Assembly (NCBI GenBank): GCA_900635465.1
Contig: LR134135.1
Location: 2,356,001-2,420,000, forward strand
From: Lelliottia amnigena
GTDB lineage: Bacteria; Pseudomonadota; Gammaproteobacteria; Enterobacterales; Enterobacteriaceae
Length of the DNA stretch: 64,000 bases
Direction: 5' to 3'
Made by a program: the position numbers and the translations under genes. The notes under the pieces were generated by a model, which was not told where the DNA came from, ran no database searches, and worked only from the letters and a program-made list of their open reading frames with translations. Of this stretch, positions 5,386 through 18,277 are shown one piece after another (positions within the stretch are counted from its first letter, which is position 1; the number at the start of each line of letters is the position of its first letter).

Positions 5386-6261
5386 CGTATACAGGGAAAA
5401 ACGCGCTCCCGGTGTTCTGCGCACCGTGTGGCGCAAATTCTATGGCGACACCACGGCGATGATCGGCCTTTACGGCTGCGGTGGTCTGGCATTGCTGTGC
5501 ATTTTTGGTTCGTGGTTTGCGCCTTACGGACTCGATCAGCAGTTCCTTGGCTATCAGCTGCTGCCCCCTTCATGGTCGCGCTATGGCGAGGTTTCCTTCT
5601 TTCTCGGCACCGACGATTTAGGCCGCGATGTGTTGAGCCGCCTGTTAAGCGGCGCCGCCCCGACGGTCGGCGGCGCATTTGTTGTGACGTTTGCCGCCAC
5701 CGTTTTTGGTCTGGCGCTCGGGATTTTTGCCGGTGCTACGCACGGTCTGCGTTCGGCTGTTCTGAATCATATTCTGGATACGCTACTGTCGATCCCGTCG
5801 CTGCTGCTGGCCATTATTGTGGTCGCCTTCGCTGGGCCGCATCTTTCTCACGCGATGTTTGCCGTCTGGCTGGCGCTGCTCCCGCGCATGGTTCGCTCAG
5901 TTTACAGTCTGGTTCATGATGAGCTCGAGAAAGAGTATGTGGTCGCGGCACGCCTCGACGGGGCAACGACCATGAATATTTTGTGGTTTGCGGTGATGCC
6001 GAACATTGCCTCTGGGCTGGTGACGGAAATTACGCGCGCGCTTTCAATGGCGATTCTGGATATCGCCGCGCTCGGTTTTCTCGATCTTGGCGCGCAACTT
6101 CCCTCCCCGGAATGGGGCGCGATGCTTGGCGACGCGCTGGAATTAATTTATGTTGCGCCGTGGACGGTGATGCTACCTGGTGCTGCAATTATGGTGAGTG
6201 TTCTGCTGATTAACCTGCTGGGCGATGGTATCCGCCACGCGATTAATGCGGGGTGCAATAA
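5372..6261 (+). CDS. sapC: SapC, ABC transporter permease (3'-terminal frameshift, probable sequencing error)
   Basis: Second permease of the Sap transporter (DppC/OppC type) with an N-terminal cytoplasmic arm, a [20 protein letters not shown] motif and an EAA-like loop near [18 protein letters not shown]. As sequenced the frame runs on to 6355 with a foreign tail. In the G run at 6250-6253 one G seems to be missing; restoring it gives an ending INAGVQ followed by TAA at 6259-6261. That yields the family length of about 296 residues and a TAATG overlap with sapD, so I end the gene at 6261. Confidence 0.9.
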
Positions 6262-7252
6262 TGCCGTTACTGGATATCCGCAATCTCACTATCGAATTCA
6301 AAACCTCCGAGGGCTGGGTGAAAGCCGTAGACCGCGTGAGTATTACGCTGGCTGAAGGCGAAATCCGCGGACTGGTGGGCGAATCTGGCTCGGGTAAAAG
6401 TCTTATAGCCAAAGCCATTTGCGGCGTCGCGAAGGACAACTGGCGCGTGACAGCCGACCGCATGCGGTTTGACGATATCGATTTGCTACGGTTGTCACCA
6501 CGCGAGCGCCGCAAGCTGGTGGGTCATAACGTGTCGATGATCTTCCAGGAGCCACAATCCTGTCTCGATCCTTCAGAACGTGTCGGCAAACAGTTGATGC
6601 AGAATATTCCCGGCTGGACCTATAAAGGCCGCTGGTGGCAGCGCGTGGGCTGGCGTAAACGCCGCGCTATTGAGCTGTTGCACCGCGTCGGGATTAAAGA
6701 TCATAAAGACGCGATGCGCAGCTTCCCGTATGAATTGACCGACGGCGAATGTCAGAAGGTGATGATCGCCATTGCGCTGGCCAATCAGCCACGCATGTTG
6801 ATTGCCGATGAACCGACAAACGCCATGGAGCCGACCACCCAGGCGCAAATTTTCCGCCTGCTGACGCGCCTTAATCAGAACAATAACACCACCATTTTGC
6901 TGATCAGCCACGACCTGCAGATGCTGAGTAAATGGGCGGATAAAATTGACGTGATGTATTGCGGACAGACGGTAGAGACCGCCGTCAGCGAAGATCTGGT
7001 GTCTGCGCCGCACCATCCGTATACCCAGGCCCTGATCCGCGCTATTCCTGATTTTGGCAGCGCGATGCCGCATAAAAGCCGTCTGAATACTTTACCGGGG
7101 CGATTCCGTTGCTGGAGTCGCTGCCGATTGGCTGTCGACTGGGTCCTCGCTGCCCTTATGCGCAGCGCAAATGCATTGAGACGCCTCGGTTGACTGGCGC
7201 TAAAACGCATCTTTTTGCCTGTCATTTCCCGCTGAACATGGAGAGAGAGTGA
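6261..7252 (+). CDS. sapD: SapD, ABC transporter ATPase (3' frameshift, probable sequencing error)
   Basis: ATP-binding subunit of the Sap system. It has Walker A GESGSGKS, a Q-loop region [18 protein letters not shown], an unusual signature [15 protein letters not shown] in place of LSGGQ (also seen in E. coli SapD), and Walker [14 protein letters not shown]. In the G run at 7097-7100 one base appears missing. Restoring it converts the divergent tail into the expected family ending with the Cys-containing oligopeptide-type C-terminus ([15 protein letters not shown]) and a TGA at 7250-7252, 330 residues in total. The ATG at 6261 overlaps the sapC stop. Confidence 0.92.
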
Positions 7253-11970: not shown

Positions 11971-13905
11971 ATGCTTCAGGACAACCCGCTGCTAGCGCAG
12001 CTTAAACAGCAACTGCATTCCCAGACGCCGCGTGCAGAAGGGGTCGTAAAAGCCACGGAAAAAGGCTTTGGCTTCCTGGAAGTCGACGCGCAGAAAAGCT
12101 ACTTCATCCCGCCTCCGCAGATGAAGAAAGTGATGCACGGCGATCGTGTGACGGCGGTGATTCACACCCAAAAGGATCGTGAAACTGCCGAGCCAGAAGA
12201 ACTTATCGAGCCTTTCCTGACCCGTTTTGTCGGGAAGGTGCACAAGAAAGACGACCGTCTTTCTATTGTTCCAGACCATCCGCTGCTGAAAGATGCGATC
12301 CCTTGCCGTGCGGATCGTAACTGCGAGCACGATTTCAAAGAAGGTGACTGGGCCGTTGCCCAGATGCGTCGCCATCCCCTGAAAGGCGATCGCGGTTTCT
12401 ATGCCGATCTGACCCATTTTATTACCTACGGCGACGACCATTTCGTCCCGTGGTGGGTGACGCTTGCGCGTCATAACCTGGAAAAAGAAGCGCCGAACGG
12501 CGTGGCGACCGAAATGCTGGATGAAGGTCTGGAACGTCGCGATCTGACGGCCCTGAACTTTGTCACCATCGACAGCGCCAGCACCCAGGATATGGATGAT
12601 GCGCTGTACGTAGAGGAAGGCGATAACGGCAAACTGCATCTGACCGTGGCGATTGCCGATCCGACCGCGTGGATTGCAGAAGGCAGCAAACTGGACGATT
12701 CGGCCAAAGTCCGCGCGTTTACGAACTATCTGCCGGGCTTTAACATCCCAATGTTGCCCCGCGAGCTGTCCGACGATCTCTGTTCGCTCCGTGCAAATCA
12801 GGTTCGCCCGGTTCTCGCCTGTCGTATGACTATCGCAGCCGATGGCACGATTGAAGATGACATTGAGTTTTTCGCCGCGACTATCGAGTCAAAGGCCAAA
12901 CTGGCTTACGACGACGTTTCTGACTGGCTGGAAGGCGCAGGCAACTGGAAACCAGAGAGCGAGGCCATTGCACAACAGATCACGCTGCTGCAACGCGCCT
13001 GTCTGAGTCGTGGCGAATGGCGTAAAACCCATGCGCTGGTCTTCAAGGATCGCCCTGATTATCGCTTCGTGCTTGGCGAAAAAGGTGAAGTGCTGGACAT
13101 TGTTGCCGAACCGCGCCGCATCGCCAATCGCATTGTTGAAGAATCGATGATTGCTGCCAATATTTGTGCCGCCCGCGTTCTGCGCGACAAATTAGGCTTC
13201 GGCATTTATAACGTGCATACCGGTTTTGACCCAGCCAACACCGAAGCGCTGGCTGCCTTGCTCAAAACTCACGACGTGCACGTTGATCCGCAGGAAGTGC
13301 TGACCCTGGAAGGATTCTGCAAACTTCGTCGCGAACTTGACGCGCAACCGTCAGGTTTCCTCGATAGCCGCATTCGTCGCTTCCAGTCGTATGCTGAAAT
13401 CAGCACCGAGCCGGGCCCGCACTTTGGTTTAGGCCTTGAAGCATACGCGACTTGGACTTCTCCAATCCGTAAATATGGCGACATGGTTAACCATCGTCTG
13501 CTGAAAGCGATCGTGAAAGGCGAAACGATTGCGCGTCCGCAGGATGAAGCCACTGTACAGATGGCTGAGCGCCGTCGCCTGAATCGCATGGCTGAACGTG
13601 ATGTCGGTGACTGGCTGTATGCGCGCTTCCTGAGTGACAAAGCCGGCACGGATACCCGTTTTGCGGCTGAAATCATCGACGTCAGCCGTGGCGGTATGCG
13701 CGTACGGCTGGTGGATAATGGTGCCGTTGCCTTTATCCCTGCGCCTTTCCTGCATGCTGTCCGTGATGAACTTGTGTGTAGCCAGGAAAACGGTTCTGTG
13801 CAGATTAAAGGTGAAACGGTTTATAAGGTCACCGATGTGATTGATGTGAACATCGCGGAAGTCCGTATGGAAACCCGCAGCATTATCGCGCGCCCTGTCG
13901 TCTGA
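11971..13905 (+). CDS. rnb: Ribonuclease II (3'-5' exoribonuclease)
   Basis: Processive hydrolytic exoribonuclease acting on single-stranded RNA. The 644 residues give the standard RNase II layout: two N-terminal cold-shock domains, the RNB catalytic domain (Mg-binding aspartates in the [18 protein letters not shown] stretch around residues 200-217, and [19 protein letters not shown] near 490-505), and a C-terminal S1 domain. Same length as E. coli RNase II. A terminator follows the stop. Confidence 0.98.
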
Positions 13906-14226: not shown

Positions 14227-16218
14227 ATGATTGACGATATGGAGCAAAATTTGCTGTTTCGTTACATGGGCACCCACAGTCCCTGGTGGCGGTTGGCAGC
14301 GGACAGCAATGCTCTGCATCTGGCCGCAAGCGAAGATGCGGATATCACGCAAGTGATTCCTCTCAGTGACGAGCAAGCCGACATTATTCGTCAGCTGACG
14401 GTAATTACCTCCAGCGTCACCATGACCCTCTCTTTGTATGGTGCTGACGTACCGGTGCATCTCGTCGGCCGCAAAATCAATAAAAAAGAGTGGGCAGGCA
14501 CCGCGTCAGCGTGGAATGACACCCCTTCTGTGGCGCGCGATCTGGTGCAAAGCCTGTCCTTCGCCGAACAGGTGGTTTCTGAAGCGAACTCCGTTATTGT
14601 TATCCTGGATCAGCACGGCAATATTCAGCGCTTCAATCGCCTAAGCGAAGAATATACGGGTCTAAAAGAACAGGAGGTTATCGGACAAAACGTCTTTAAA
14701 CTCTTCATGAGCCGCAGTGAAGCAGCCGCCTCTAAGCGCAATATCTCAGGGTTTTTCCGTAACGGCAGCTCCTATGAAGTGGAGCGCTGGATCAAAACGC
14801 GCAAAGGCCAGCGGTTGTTTCTCTTCAGAAATAAATTTGTGCACAGCGGCAGCGGTAAAAATGAAATTTTCCTGATCTGCTCGGGCACCGATATCACGGA
14901 AGAACGTCGGGCGCAGGAGCGACTTCGGGTTCTGGCGAATACGGATACTATTACAGGCCTGCCAAATCGTAATGCGATCCACGAATTAATCAGCGACGCG
15001 ATTTCTCAACGCGGCGACACTCAGGTCGGGGTGGTTTATCTCGATCTCGATAATTTTAAGAAGGTAAACGATGCTTACGGGCATATGTTTGGCGACCAAT
15101 TGCTGCAGGCTGTCGCGTTAGCCATTTTAAGCTGTCTGGACGACGGCCAGATGCTGGCGCGTCTCGGGGGCGATGAATTTATCGTTCTGGCTACCGACAC
15201 CTCACAGAGCACGCTAGAGGCGATGGCATCGCGGATCCTGACGCGGTTACGCCAACCTTTCCGTATCGGTCTCATTGAGATTTATACCGGTTGTTCCCTG
15301 GGCATCTCCCTTGCTCCGCAGCATGGTACGGATCGTGAAAGTATTATTCGTAACGCAGATACCGCGATGTATACGGCAAAAGAAAGCGGCCGCGGTAAAT
15401 TCACCGTCTTCTCGCCGGAAATGAACCAGCGTGTTTTTGAATATCTGTGGCTGGACACCAACCTGCGTAAAGCCCTGGATAAGGATCAACTCCTCATTCA
15501 CTATCAGCCCAAAATCACATGGCGCGGCGAAGTCAGAAGCCTGGAAGCGCTGGTTCGCTGGCAGTCACCGGAACGCGGCCTGATCCCTCCTCTTGAGTTT
15601 ATCTCCTACGCTGAAGAATCCGGATTGATTGTGCCCCTTGGCCGCTGGGTCATGCTGGACGTAGTGCGTCAGGTTGCGAAGTGGCGTGACAAAGGTATCA
15701 ACCTGCGCGTCGCTGTTAACGTTTCAGCGCGTCAACTCGCCGATCAGACTATTTTCAGCGATTTAAAACAGGCGTTGAAAGATCTCAATTTTGAATATTG
15801 CCCGATCGATGTGGAATTAACGGAAAGCTGTTTGATTGAAAACGAAGAGCTGGCGCTGTCGGTTATTCAACAATTCAGTAAACTTGGGGCACAGATCCAT
15901 CTTGACGATTTCGGCACCGGTTATTCCTCTTTATCGCAACTGGCTCGCTTCCCCATTGACGCGATTAAACTTGATCAGGTGTTTGTGCGTGATATTCACA
16001 AACAATCTATTTCCCAGTCGCTGGTGCGCGCCATTGTGGCCGTGGCTCAGGCGTTGAATTTGCAGGTTATTGCGGAAGGCGTTGAGAGCACAAAAGAAGA
16101 CGCCTTTCTGACCAAGAACGGCGTCAACGAACGGCAAGGTTTTCTGTTTGCTAAGCCGATGCCCGCTGCCGCATTCGAGCGGTGGTTTAAGCGCTACCAG
16201 GCAAAAAAAATGCGCTAG
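14227..16218 (+). CDS. rpfR: RpfR/PdeR (Gmr): PAS-GGDEF-EAL DSF receptor and c-di-GMP enzyme
   Basis: Cytosolic receptor-enzyme of the RpfR family (E. coli orthologue gmr/pdeR). In RpfR proteins, binding of a diffusible fatty-acid signal (DSF type) to the PAS domain stimulates c-di-GMP phosphodiesterase activity. The 663 residues show an N-terminal domain of about 100 residues matching the RpfF-interaction region, PAS from about 110 ([20 protein letters not shown]), GGDEF at residues 314-318, and EAL at 440-442 with downstream [10 protein letters not shown]. The ATG at 14227 has GGAG upstream. The neighbouring convergent rpfF encodes the presumed signal synthase; the two stop codons overlap in CTAG at 16215-16218. 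E. coli has only this gene here. Confidence 0.9.
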
Positions 16219-17084
16219 CTGGCTTTACGTATCCCAACGGCATTGTGGCGATTTTGCAGCATGACCAGGCGTTCCATGTAGGCGATATCTTTTGGCTCCA
16301 GGCAAAATGCCGCATCGACCCAGTCTTCGGTGATATCCATCAGTTCGCTGCGAGGCAGTTGCATCACGCGCTGCCGCGCACGCAGCATCGCCCTGACGCC
16401 ATTGAGTTTTGGCTGTAACGTATCGATGAACGTGCGTGTCGACAGGTAGCCGTGACCCGGTTCGAAAAGTACATCCACAAGCCCATATTGCTCATGCCAT
16501 TCCGCAGTGTGTGATTCACCTTTATAGATAAGTTCCTCGGCCAGTTTCATGCCTGCACGGCGCGCAACCAGCGAGTATCCTCCCATGCCCGGGAACAGAT
16601 TAAACGCGATTTCCGGGAAACCTAGCCGGGCATCACGCTGCGCCAGCACAAAATGGTGCGCCAGTGCCGCTTCGAACCCTCCGCCGAGTGCGCTGCCCTC
16701 AACCATTGCTAACGTAATCGCGCCCGTATCAAAGCCTCGAGAAGCCGCGTGCACGCAATCGACACAGGCGCGGGCGTATGCGCGTAACGCTTCGCGTCGG
16801 CCATTCTGGATACATTCAACGAAGAAACGGAGATCGCCTCCGGTATTGTACATATCGGGAACAAGCGAACCGGTCACCCAAAAATCCACGGCATAGCCCG
16901 ATTGCCTGACCAGCCACGATATATTCATGATCTCTTCAATTAACGCATGGTTAAAGCATGGACGTGGCTGGGCACGGAGCATCATCCATAGTGTGCGTCT
17001 TTCCTCCTCGTAATATCCCGCGAGTTGGGTGAAACGGTCGGGGTCGGTGAACAGTTTACAGGTTGCTTGATCGATGACTGTCAT
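16215..17084 (-). CDS. rpfF: RpfF-family DSF synthase (crotonase fold)
   Basis: Predicted synthase of cis-2-unsaturated fatty-acid quorum signals from acyl-ACP (dehydratase plus thioesterase, crotonase superfamily). The 289 residues equal the usual RpfF length. The oxyanion-hole region [20 protein letters not shown] and the following [19 protein letters not shown] place acidic residues at Glu138 and Glu158, a 20-residue spacing matching the catalytic Glu pair (141/161) of Xanthomonas RpfF. The ATG follows GAGGAA by six bases. Convergent with rpfR and sharing its stop region. Absent from this site in E. coli. An ordinary enoyl-CoA hydratase is less likely given the neighbour and the Glu pair. 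Confidence 0.9.
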
Positions 17085-17277: not shown

Positions 17278-17460
17278 ATGTCTGAAATTGACGCACAGAA
17301 AGTGGCGCAACGCATTGATACGGTGCTGGATATCCTTGTGGGTGGCGACTATCACTCTGCCATTCGTAATCTTGAGATTTTAAAATCCGAATTACTGGAT
17401 CACATCAGCGCGGAAAATACCCCTGATTCGGCTCAGCCAAAGGCGCCGTGGGAAGTGTAA
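17278..17460 (+). CDS. yciZ: YciZ family small protein
   Basis: 60-residue soluble protein, [20 protein letters not shown], rich in helix-forming residues and ending KAPWEV. It matches E. coli YciZ (57 residues), which likewise lies between gmr and yciT. Function unknown. The start at 17278 is chosen over an in-frame ATG 12 codons upstream because it reproduces the known N-terminus and has a GGGGAA element just before it. Confidence 0.88.
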
Positions 17461-17524
17461 ATTCCCCTCATTTAAATAAGACTTATTTTTAACCAGCGGC
17501 GCAGGCCGTCTTAATATGGATGCT

Positions 17525-18277
17525 ATGAATTCCCGACAACAACTTATTCTGCAGATGGTGATCGACAAAGGACGCATGAGTGTCGTCGAGCTCGCTAAAA
17601 CGACGGGTGTTTCTGAAGTGACTATCCGCCAGGATCTCAACTTGCTGGAAAAGCAGAGCTATCTGCGGCGTGCCCACGGTTATGCTGTTCCGCTCGACAG
17701 TGAAGATGTCGAAACGCGTATGATGAACAACTACGCACTCAAGCGTCAGTTGGCTGAGTTTGCGGCGTCGCTGGTCAGTAATGGCGAGACCGTGTTCATT
17801 GAGAATGGCAGCAGCAACGCCCTTTTGGCGCGAACCCTGGCGGAACAAAAAGACGTCACCATAATTACGGTGAGCAGCTATATCGCCCATCTGTTGAAAG
17901 AGACCACCTGCGAGGTGATTTTGCTGGGCGGTATTTACCAGAAGAAAAGTGAAAGCATGGTTGGTCCATTGACCCGCCAGTATGTTCAGCAAGTTCACTT
18001 CAGCAAAGCATTTATTGGCATCGATGGTTGGCAGGCTGAAACGGGATTTACCGGACGCGATATGATGCGTTCTGACGTGGTCAACGCCGTGCTCGAAAAA
18101 GGCTGTGAGGCCATTGTGTTGACCGATAGCTCTAAATTTGGTGCGGTACACCCCTACACCATGGGCCCCGTATCACGCTTTAACCGCGTGATTACGGATG
18201 AGCGCCTGAGTGAGGCCCACCGCGAACAATTAGTCAGCGATGGTCTGATTGTCGATATTGTTAATAAAACGGCCTGA
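17525..18277 (+). CDS. yciT: YciT, DeoR-family transcriptional regulator
   Basis: DeoR-type regulator of about 250 residues. N-terminal HTH ([25 protein letters not shown]) with the DeoR-type LRRAHG motif after it, then a sugar-phosphate-sensor domain ([22 protein letters not shown]). The E. coli orthologue sits at the same place and has been tied to osmolarity response. Start at 17525 (MNSRQQLIL) preferred over the ATG at 17516 because GGA lies just upstream and it matches E. coli. Confidence 0.93.

Follow-up and report, generated by a model that had tools for sequence, protein, structure and literature searches.

The rpfR and rpfF genes of the window

We analysed a stretch of 64,000 nucleotides from Lelliottia amnigena (contig LR134135.1 of assembly GCA_900635465.1, a single-contig genome of 4.47 Mb), here called the window and numbered from its first base, in which two convergent genes encode the predicted receptor and the predicted synthase of Burkholderia diffusible signal factor (BDSF). 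The rpfR gene (Escherichia coli pdeR/gmr; 14227..16218, forward strand) encodes a protein of 663 amino acids with FI, PAS, GGDEF and EAL domains, a cyclic di-GMP (c-di-GMP) phosphodiesterase and predicted BDSF receptor identified with NCBIfam PRK10060, Pfam and the PDB entries 6dgg and 6dga. The rpfF gene (16215..17084, reverse strand) encodes a crotonase-fold protein of 289 amino acids, the predicted BDSF synthase, identified with the PDB chains 6dgn_A and 5fus_A, NCBIfam PRK08788 and a tree. Both open reading frames lie where an earlier note, made from this DNA alone, had placed them. They overlap by four bases, and the sequence CTAG at 16215..16218, as read from the window, contains both of the convergent stop codons.

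RpfR is an orthologue of PdeR/RpfR (PRK10060, 1296 bits). Pfam detected PAS_9, GGDEF and EAL in it, the last two above their cut-offs, and these domains, the phmmer matches and the model of the N-terminus together give the FI-PAS-GGDEF-EAL architecture of RpfR. The FI (RpfF-interaction) domain (residues 1-95; 14227..14511, forward strand) was matched by phmmer to the RpfR entries 6dga and 6dgn. Its AlphaFold model had a pLDDT (predicted local distance difference test) of 82, and the first structural match was 6dgn_B (E 2.6e-13, template modelling score 0.91, 65% identity); the comparison of the receptor N-terminus with RpfR FI domains that the earlier note had proposed thus confirmed an FI domain. 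The PAS domain follows (residues 115-224; 14569..14898, forward strand; 214 bits to 6dgg_A over 115-224), then the GGDEF domain (residues 237-390; 14935..15396, forward strand; PF00990, 155 bits) with its GGDEF motif at 314-318, and the EAL phosphodiesterase domain (residues 412-644; 15460..16158, forward strand; PF00563, 226 bits), in which EAL stands at 440-442 and DDFGTGYSS at 560-568. Glu440, Glu533, Asp560/561 and Glu617, which we take to be the catalytic EAL residues, are present in the window protein and in all aligned receptors, namely 109 from loci that also carry rpfF (paired) and 27 from genomes without it (orphan). In the crystal structure of the RpfR PAS domain, BDSF is reported to be held by Ser169, Asn172, Tyr183, Arg187 and Asn202 (PMC6361424). 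All five contacts occur in the window RpfR under the same numbers as in Cronobacter turicensis, and they are invariant in 109/109 paired rows.

RpfF contains the Pfam domains ECH_1 and ECH_2. Among solved structures, its best matches were the RpfF chains 6dgn_A and 5fus_A, which are nearly identical to each other (414 bits, ungapped over residues 6-280, i.e. 275 residues), followed at a distance by 7zq7 (167 bits) and 3m6m (154 bits), while the best ordinary hydratase reached 54.5 bits. The catalytic residues Glu138 (codon 16671..16673, reverse strand) and Glu158 (codon 16611..16613, reverse strand), presumably Glu141/Glu161 in Xanthomonas RpfF numbering, are glutamate in 111 of 111 aligned RpfF sequences; the glutamate pair on which the earlier note relied is present. 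Phe44 and Phe88, the two phenylalanines described as shifting in the published RpfF-FI complex (PMC6361424), are likewise invariant in all 111 rows. The chain 5fus is RpfF of Burkholderia cenocepacia, and the same RpfF was used in that complex (PMC6361424); the title of 6dgn, however, refers to Cronobacter.

An ordinary enoyl-CoA hydratase that adjoins pdeR by chance would agree with the family models, since the best of them, PRK08788 (409 bits, cut-off 177), is named merely crotonase/enoyl-CoA hydratase family protein, and on the NCBIfam equivalog for RpfF, NF053515, the window protein scored 176 bits, far below the curated cut-off of 550. We do not claim membership of that equivalog for it. 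The scores (414 bits with RpfF, no more than 54.5 with hydratases) speak against a hydratase, and so does a tree of 41 crotonases. In this tree nine enterobacterial RpfF proteins formed one group (100/100), and RpfF together with 29 RpfF-like proteins from other families was separated (99/95) from the three other ECH_1 domains of the genome, although these three sit on very long branches. A closer grouping with ordinary hydratases, which the earlier note had named as the outcome that would count against it, was not seen; by score and by tree the protein belongs with RpfF-like proteins. Moreover, RpfF is accompanied by RpfR throughout the family sample, and FI and PAS columns drift where RpfF is missing (both below), so that we consider a chance hydratase extremely improbable. 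Chance likeness of the pair as a whole is excluded by the 414 bits to RpfF entries and the 1296 bits to the PdeR model, and the earlier description of a complete rpfF/rpfR pair at the gmr locus stands.

Distribution of the pair

In a sample of 295 genomes of the family (RpfF at E ≤1e-20, RpfR at E ≤1e-150, lists compared by hand), RpfF was found in 70 and RpfR in 100 genomes. RpfR was present in all 70 RpfF genomes, occurred alone in 30, and 195 genomes had neither. In a sample of 369 genomes of the class, an RpfF-like protein (E ≤1e-20, 33-45% identity) is encoded by 68, not counting the window genome itself, and none of these 68 has RpfR at E ≤1e-150; outside the family, the kin of RpfF thus go without RpfR.

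We fetched 137 loci, of which 108 are paired, 27 are orphan and two (L046 and L077) are without RpfR. For L046 the stretch that was fetched contains no receptor gene, and the RpfF of L077 is an additional copy. The paired rows stem from stretches of 30 of the 70 RpfF genomes, from the window's own genome (G000) and from named loci (the best 80 of 302); the orphan rows represent 27 of the 30 orphan genomes, as G028, G061 and G201 gave fragmentary matches and were excluded. Two receptors with in-frame stops, L068 and L080, were kept in the 109-row alignment and left out of the tree and the tree counts. The two genes are convergent in 108/108 paired loci. With the broken locus L080 set aside, 57 of 107 overlap by four bases, 40 are separated by 0-120 bases and 10 by a larger gap.

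Several loci deviate from this layout. Seven Buttiauxella loci have approximately 1.4-1.5 kb between the convergent genes, and in L055 (Buttiauxella agrestis) the interval at 5479-6840 holds, by eye, a LysR-type regulator and a small protein of the carboxymuconolactone-decarboxylase type. The second RpfF copy of Atlantibacter subterranea (L077, 4501-5370) is 77% identical to that of the window and lies near two open reading frames that by eye resemble LuxR-type regulators, at a locus without RpfR; the usual pair (L059) is on the same contig. The RpfR frame is broken with rpfF present in L068 (Siccibacter colletis, one stop) and L080 (Pantoea conspicua, five stops in the aligned frames), and single stops occur beside rpfF in the RpfR frames of G225 (TAG; a contig of the same length as that of L068) and G171 (L178; TAA). 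The pairs of L061 (titled Chryseobacterium sp. 18061) and L069 (titled Citrobacter freundii M-21) are typical enterobacterial ones that fall near the Pluralibacter-like and Atlantibacter rows, which suggests mislabelled records or mixed assemblies.

Within Lelliottia, the nearest named RpfF is that of Lelliottia sp. V86_10 (96% identity). A 98% match was found in protein P0021, which NCBI names L. amnigena, and JGI already annotates several close Lelliottia proteins as 'DSF synthase' (diffusible signal factor synthase). The matches listed in a literature search on rpfF, rpfR and quorum sensing contained no mention of Lelliottia. As the earlier note had said, related pairs are published for Cronobacter and Burkholderia (PMC4698668, PMC6361424). 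Published carriers include Enterobacter, Cronobacter, Serratia and Yersinia (PMC4698668) and Pantoea, Erwinia, Rahnella and Yokenella (PMC12838280). The weight that the note had given to the locus as an intact enterobacterial example does not hold up against 70 of 295 family genomes and so many published genera: the pair is of an already known kind and ordinary for this enterobacterial branch.

Predicted signalling by RpfF and RpfR

We consider it highly probable that the window pair is a full RpfF/RpfR system like those of Burkholderia and Cronobacter, in which a predicted BDSF-type signal would be sensed by RpfR and would lower c-di-GMP. RpfF would act as a dehydratase and thioesterase on 3-hydroxyacyl-acyl carrier protein (ACP) and release BDSF, as described for characterised RpfF (PMC4504480). 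The FI domain of RpfR would bind RpfF and restrain the synthase; binding of FI is reported to lower the thioesterase activity of RpfF, and deletion of FI to raise BDSF and lower c-di-GMP (PMC6361424). Free signal, once accumulated, would occupy the PAS pocket, where BDSF is held to raise phosphodiesterase activity (PMC6361424), and higher activity of the EAL domain would leave less c-di-GMP and less biofilm matrix. Fatty-acid signalling with a c-di-GMP output is thereby predicted for the window genome.

The pair could also be genuine and work mainly inside the cell, with RpfF as a broad acyl-ACP thioesterase and RpfR as a sensor of the fatty-acid supply of the same cell, rather than through a cell-to-cell quorum signal. 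RpfF homologues are reported to cleave many acyl-ACPs, saturated C12:0 co-purifies with the RpfR PAS domain, and RpfF and RpfR interact directly with each other (PMC6361424), while RpfR is found in 70/70 RpfF-bearing genomes of the family sample. In addition, wild-type C. turicensis did not trigger a BDSF biosensor, to which only a strain with plasmid-borne rpfF gave a response (PMC4698668). However, BDSF of Burkholderia builds up extracellularly and increases when FI is deleted, and C12:0 is called an inactive isomer in the same report (PMC6361424). We regard a mainly intracellular role as rather unlikely.

Burkholderia belongs to a bacterial order other than that of the window host. RpfF of B. 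cenocepacia (RpfFBc, BCAM0581), to which the window protein scored 414 bits (5fus), works with an RpfR of the same architecture and binding residues (PMC6361424, PMC12838280), in a system to which the partners GtrR and BerB also belong. The RpfF/RpfR pair of C. turicensis (structures 6dga, 6dgg, 6dgj and 6dgn) has both proteins and the domain order found in the window, where the FI domain is 65% identical with the same fold and the five PAS contacts are kept. It differs in being from another species in which effects were measured, whereas the window pair is known from sequence: rpfR and rpfF mutants of C. turicensis contained 3.9- and 3.4-fold more c-di-GMP and formed more biofilm (PMC4698668). 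Xanthomonas RpfF is homologous (3m6m, 154 bits) and also has two conserved catalytic glutamates (PMC4504480), but its receptor is the hybrid kinase RpfC, with RpfG (PMC4698668), whereas the window neighbour is an FI-PAS-GGDEF-EAL receptor, and the window synthase scores far below the NF053515 cut-off.

Several points weigh against a complete signalling system. The family models for the synthase, as given above, yield a low score on the RpfF equivalog and an unspecific name. The AlphaFold model of RpfF was too poor (pLDDT 49) and was set aside, which left the alignment as the basis for assessing the active site. The chemistry, the identity of the signal, the inhibition by FI and the direction of the c-di-GMP effect are carried over from characterised homologues, and signal, enzyme activity and c-di-GMP change in the window strain are predictions. 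To these are added the modest domain-wide contrasts and the few independent comparisons described below.

Loss of rpfF in relatives

A tree was built from the GGDEF-EAL part of RpfR with 134 rows (107 paired, 27 orphan). The label paired or orphan changes eight times on this tree, at least four times on well supported branches, and as rooted the tree has nine orphan clades, some with poorly supported joins. These sequence relationships indicate that RpfF was lost repeatedly in the family. In G239 (L143), from the genus group of the window, 250 bases separate pdeR from yciZ (1063 in the window, measured alike), and this gap contains translated matches to two parts of RpfF, residues 271-289 (tblastn E 4e-4) and 18-37 (E 1e-3), with the middle gone. 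We read this as an in-place deletion of rpfF that left both gene ends; because both ends remain, RpfF was lost, and not never gained, at least in G239. A weaker hint of the RpfF C-terminal end was found in G268 (E 0.017), and the other 25 orphan loci showed no RpfF remnant by tblastn at E ≤1. We attribute an 18-base match to rpfF on the other strand of L148 (E 0.002) to chance.

Change of the receptor where RpfF is missing

Paired and orphan receptors differ at four FI positions and at the PAS contacts. Ala29 is kept in 107/107 paired tree rows and changed in 24/27 orphans; Gly72 is changed in 1/107 and 20/27, respectively, the sole paired exception being L176 with Asp; Ser27 in 0/107 and 14/27; and Asp26 in 0/107 and 10/27. 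Any of the five PAS contacts is changed in no paired row and in 14/27 orphans. At least one of these nine positions is changed in 1/107 paired and 26/27 orphan rows, G239 being the one orphan with all nine intact; these counts describe and do not test, because the positions were chosen for differing. In the FI model, Gly72 belongs to the loop joining beta4 and beta5, which PMC6361424 calls buried in the RpfF interface. The turn from beta1 to beta2 contains Asp26 and Ser27, and strand beta2 opens with Ala29; all three are outside the beta2-beta3 loop named in that paper, and their contact with RpfF is putative.

A first count of changes in whole FI and PAS domains against EAL, with all paired branches as the reference, gave a very strong excess in orphans, with GGDEF also raised (p 0.005). 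Among 2000 random sets of paired clades, values as extreme were reached in 0 cases for FI, 0 for PAS and 30 for GGDEF. Against the paired branches of the crown clade, the whole-domain FI excess disappeared (FI/EAL 1.51 in orphan and 1.36 in paired, p 0.29), and that of PAS was modest (PAS/EAL 0.64 and 0.47, p 0.014), which weakens the support for coupling. Because the FI excess vanished within the crown clade, we relied on columns invariant in the 34 paired rows outside it and counted changes on orphan and crown paired branches, with tree lengths of 3.20 and 3.65. Orphan and crown paired changes amounted to 45:12 in FI, 17:3 in the linker, 55:19 in PAS, 15:13 in GGDEF and 27:21 in EAL. FI, linker and PAS together differ from GGDEF-EAL (117:34 against 42:34, Fisher p 0.0007), a contrast that was added after earlier counts had been seen and that, like the others, takes parsimony changes as independent; against EAL alone, p is 0.02 for FI, 0.049 for PAS and 1.0 for GGDEF. 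Sign tests on independent pairs were limited to four pairs on well supported branches, and for the nine positions jointly three pointed the same way and none the opposite. The signal thus comes from individual columns that are otherwise fixed, rather than from the FI domain as a whole.

The repeated loss of RpfF and the disproportionate change in fixed FI and PAS columns without it are what is new in this analysis. None of the papers listed in our literature searches announces such receptor decay, although some of it may be visible in an alignment in the S2 figure of PMC6361424. Comparing paired with orphan RpfR points to receptor positions that seemingly depend on RpfF.

These data also bear on the possibility that RpfF and RpfR are adjacent yet uncoupled, with RpfR an E. 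coli-like DgcM/MlrA trigger enzyme and RpfF a relic. The E. coli homologue PdeR does act through DgcM and MlrA (PMC5635695), but the window RpfR keeps all nine positions (26, 27, 29, 72, 169, 172, 183, 187 and 202), which are intact in 106/107 paired tree rows and changed at least once in 26/27 orphans, and the window RpfF retains its four checked residues (Glu138, Glu158, Phe44 and Phe88). We judge an uncoupled pair very unlikely and favour the complete RpfF/RpfR system.

Escherichia coli PdeR and the gene neighbourhood

E. coli PdeR (Gmr, b1285) is the RpfR orthologue at the same site, between rnb and yciZ-yciT, and differs in having no rpfF beside it. A blastn search of 20,395 E. coli records with rpfF DNA (word size 11, E ≤1e-5) found nothing, whereas the window rpfR matched 5372 of 5426 E. 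coli genomes in the same mode, which bears out the earlier statement that E. coli holds the receptor gene only. Megablast with rpfR gave no match in E. coli and was insufficiently sensitive, so that blastn in distant mode was used instead. PdeR of K-12 (L234, 1258-3243) and of six further strains has Ser26, Ser27, Val29, Glu72, Ser169, Asn172, Tyr183, Leu187 and Asn202, i.e. positions 26, 29, 72 and 187 are changed in 7/7. Arg187 is reported to gain a second hydrogen bond with BDSF, and the Ala mutant of the Burkholderia counterpart to raise c-di-GMP (PMC6361424). With Leu in place of Arg187, a response of E. coli PdeR to BDSF like that of RpfR is improbable. The known function of PdeR is exerted through DgcM and MlrA (PMC5635695), and regulation of Gmr by C12:0 has been raised as a speculation (PMC6361424). 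Two orphan receptors with about 95% identity to that of E. coli differ at this site, with Arg187 in L162 and Leu in L154.

A broader reading, for and against which we see about equal weight, is that the DSF system was dismantled repeatedly and in a fixed order: rpfF would be deleted in place, the FI docking surface (26, 27, 29 and 72) and often the pocket (Ser169, Asn172 and Arg187) would then be lost, and GGDEF-EAL would stay. On this reading, E. coli PdeR, with Leu at Arg187, would be a former BDSF receptor, now decommissioned and retained as a trigger enzyme driven by interactions, and the receptor sequence by itself would reveal whether a genome is paired or orphan. This pattern of loss and decay is the main added value of the analysis and provides concrete predictions for orphan receptors.

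In E. coli, the place of rpfF is taken by ymiD (L200, 4799-4927; L234, 1148-1276), which has the same orientation as rpfF and runs antisense across the 3' end of pdeR. YmiD was considered as a fossil of RpfF and rejected, as its alignment to RpfF was no better than shuffles (910/2000 reached its score).

The neighbours of the pair were named by eye from translations and the K-12 order. Upstream lies rnb (RNase II; 11971..13905, forward strand), and beyond rpfF come yciZ (17278..17451, forward strand), divergent from it, and the regulator gene yciT (17516..18277, forward strand). The order fabI-yciW-rnb-rpfR-rpfF-yciZ-yciT, with yciH-pyrF further on, is identical in E. coli K-12 MG1655 except for rpfF, and the rnb-yciT context described earlier for the pair is borne out.

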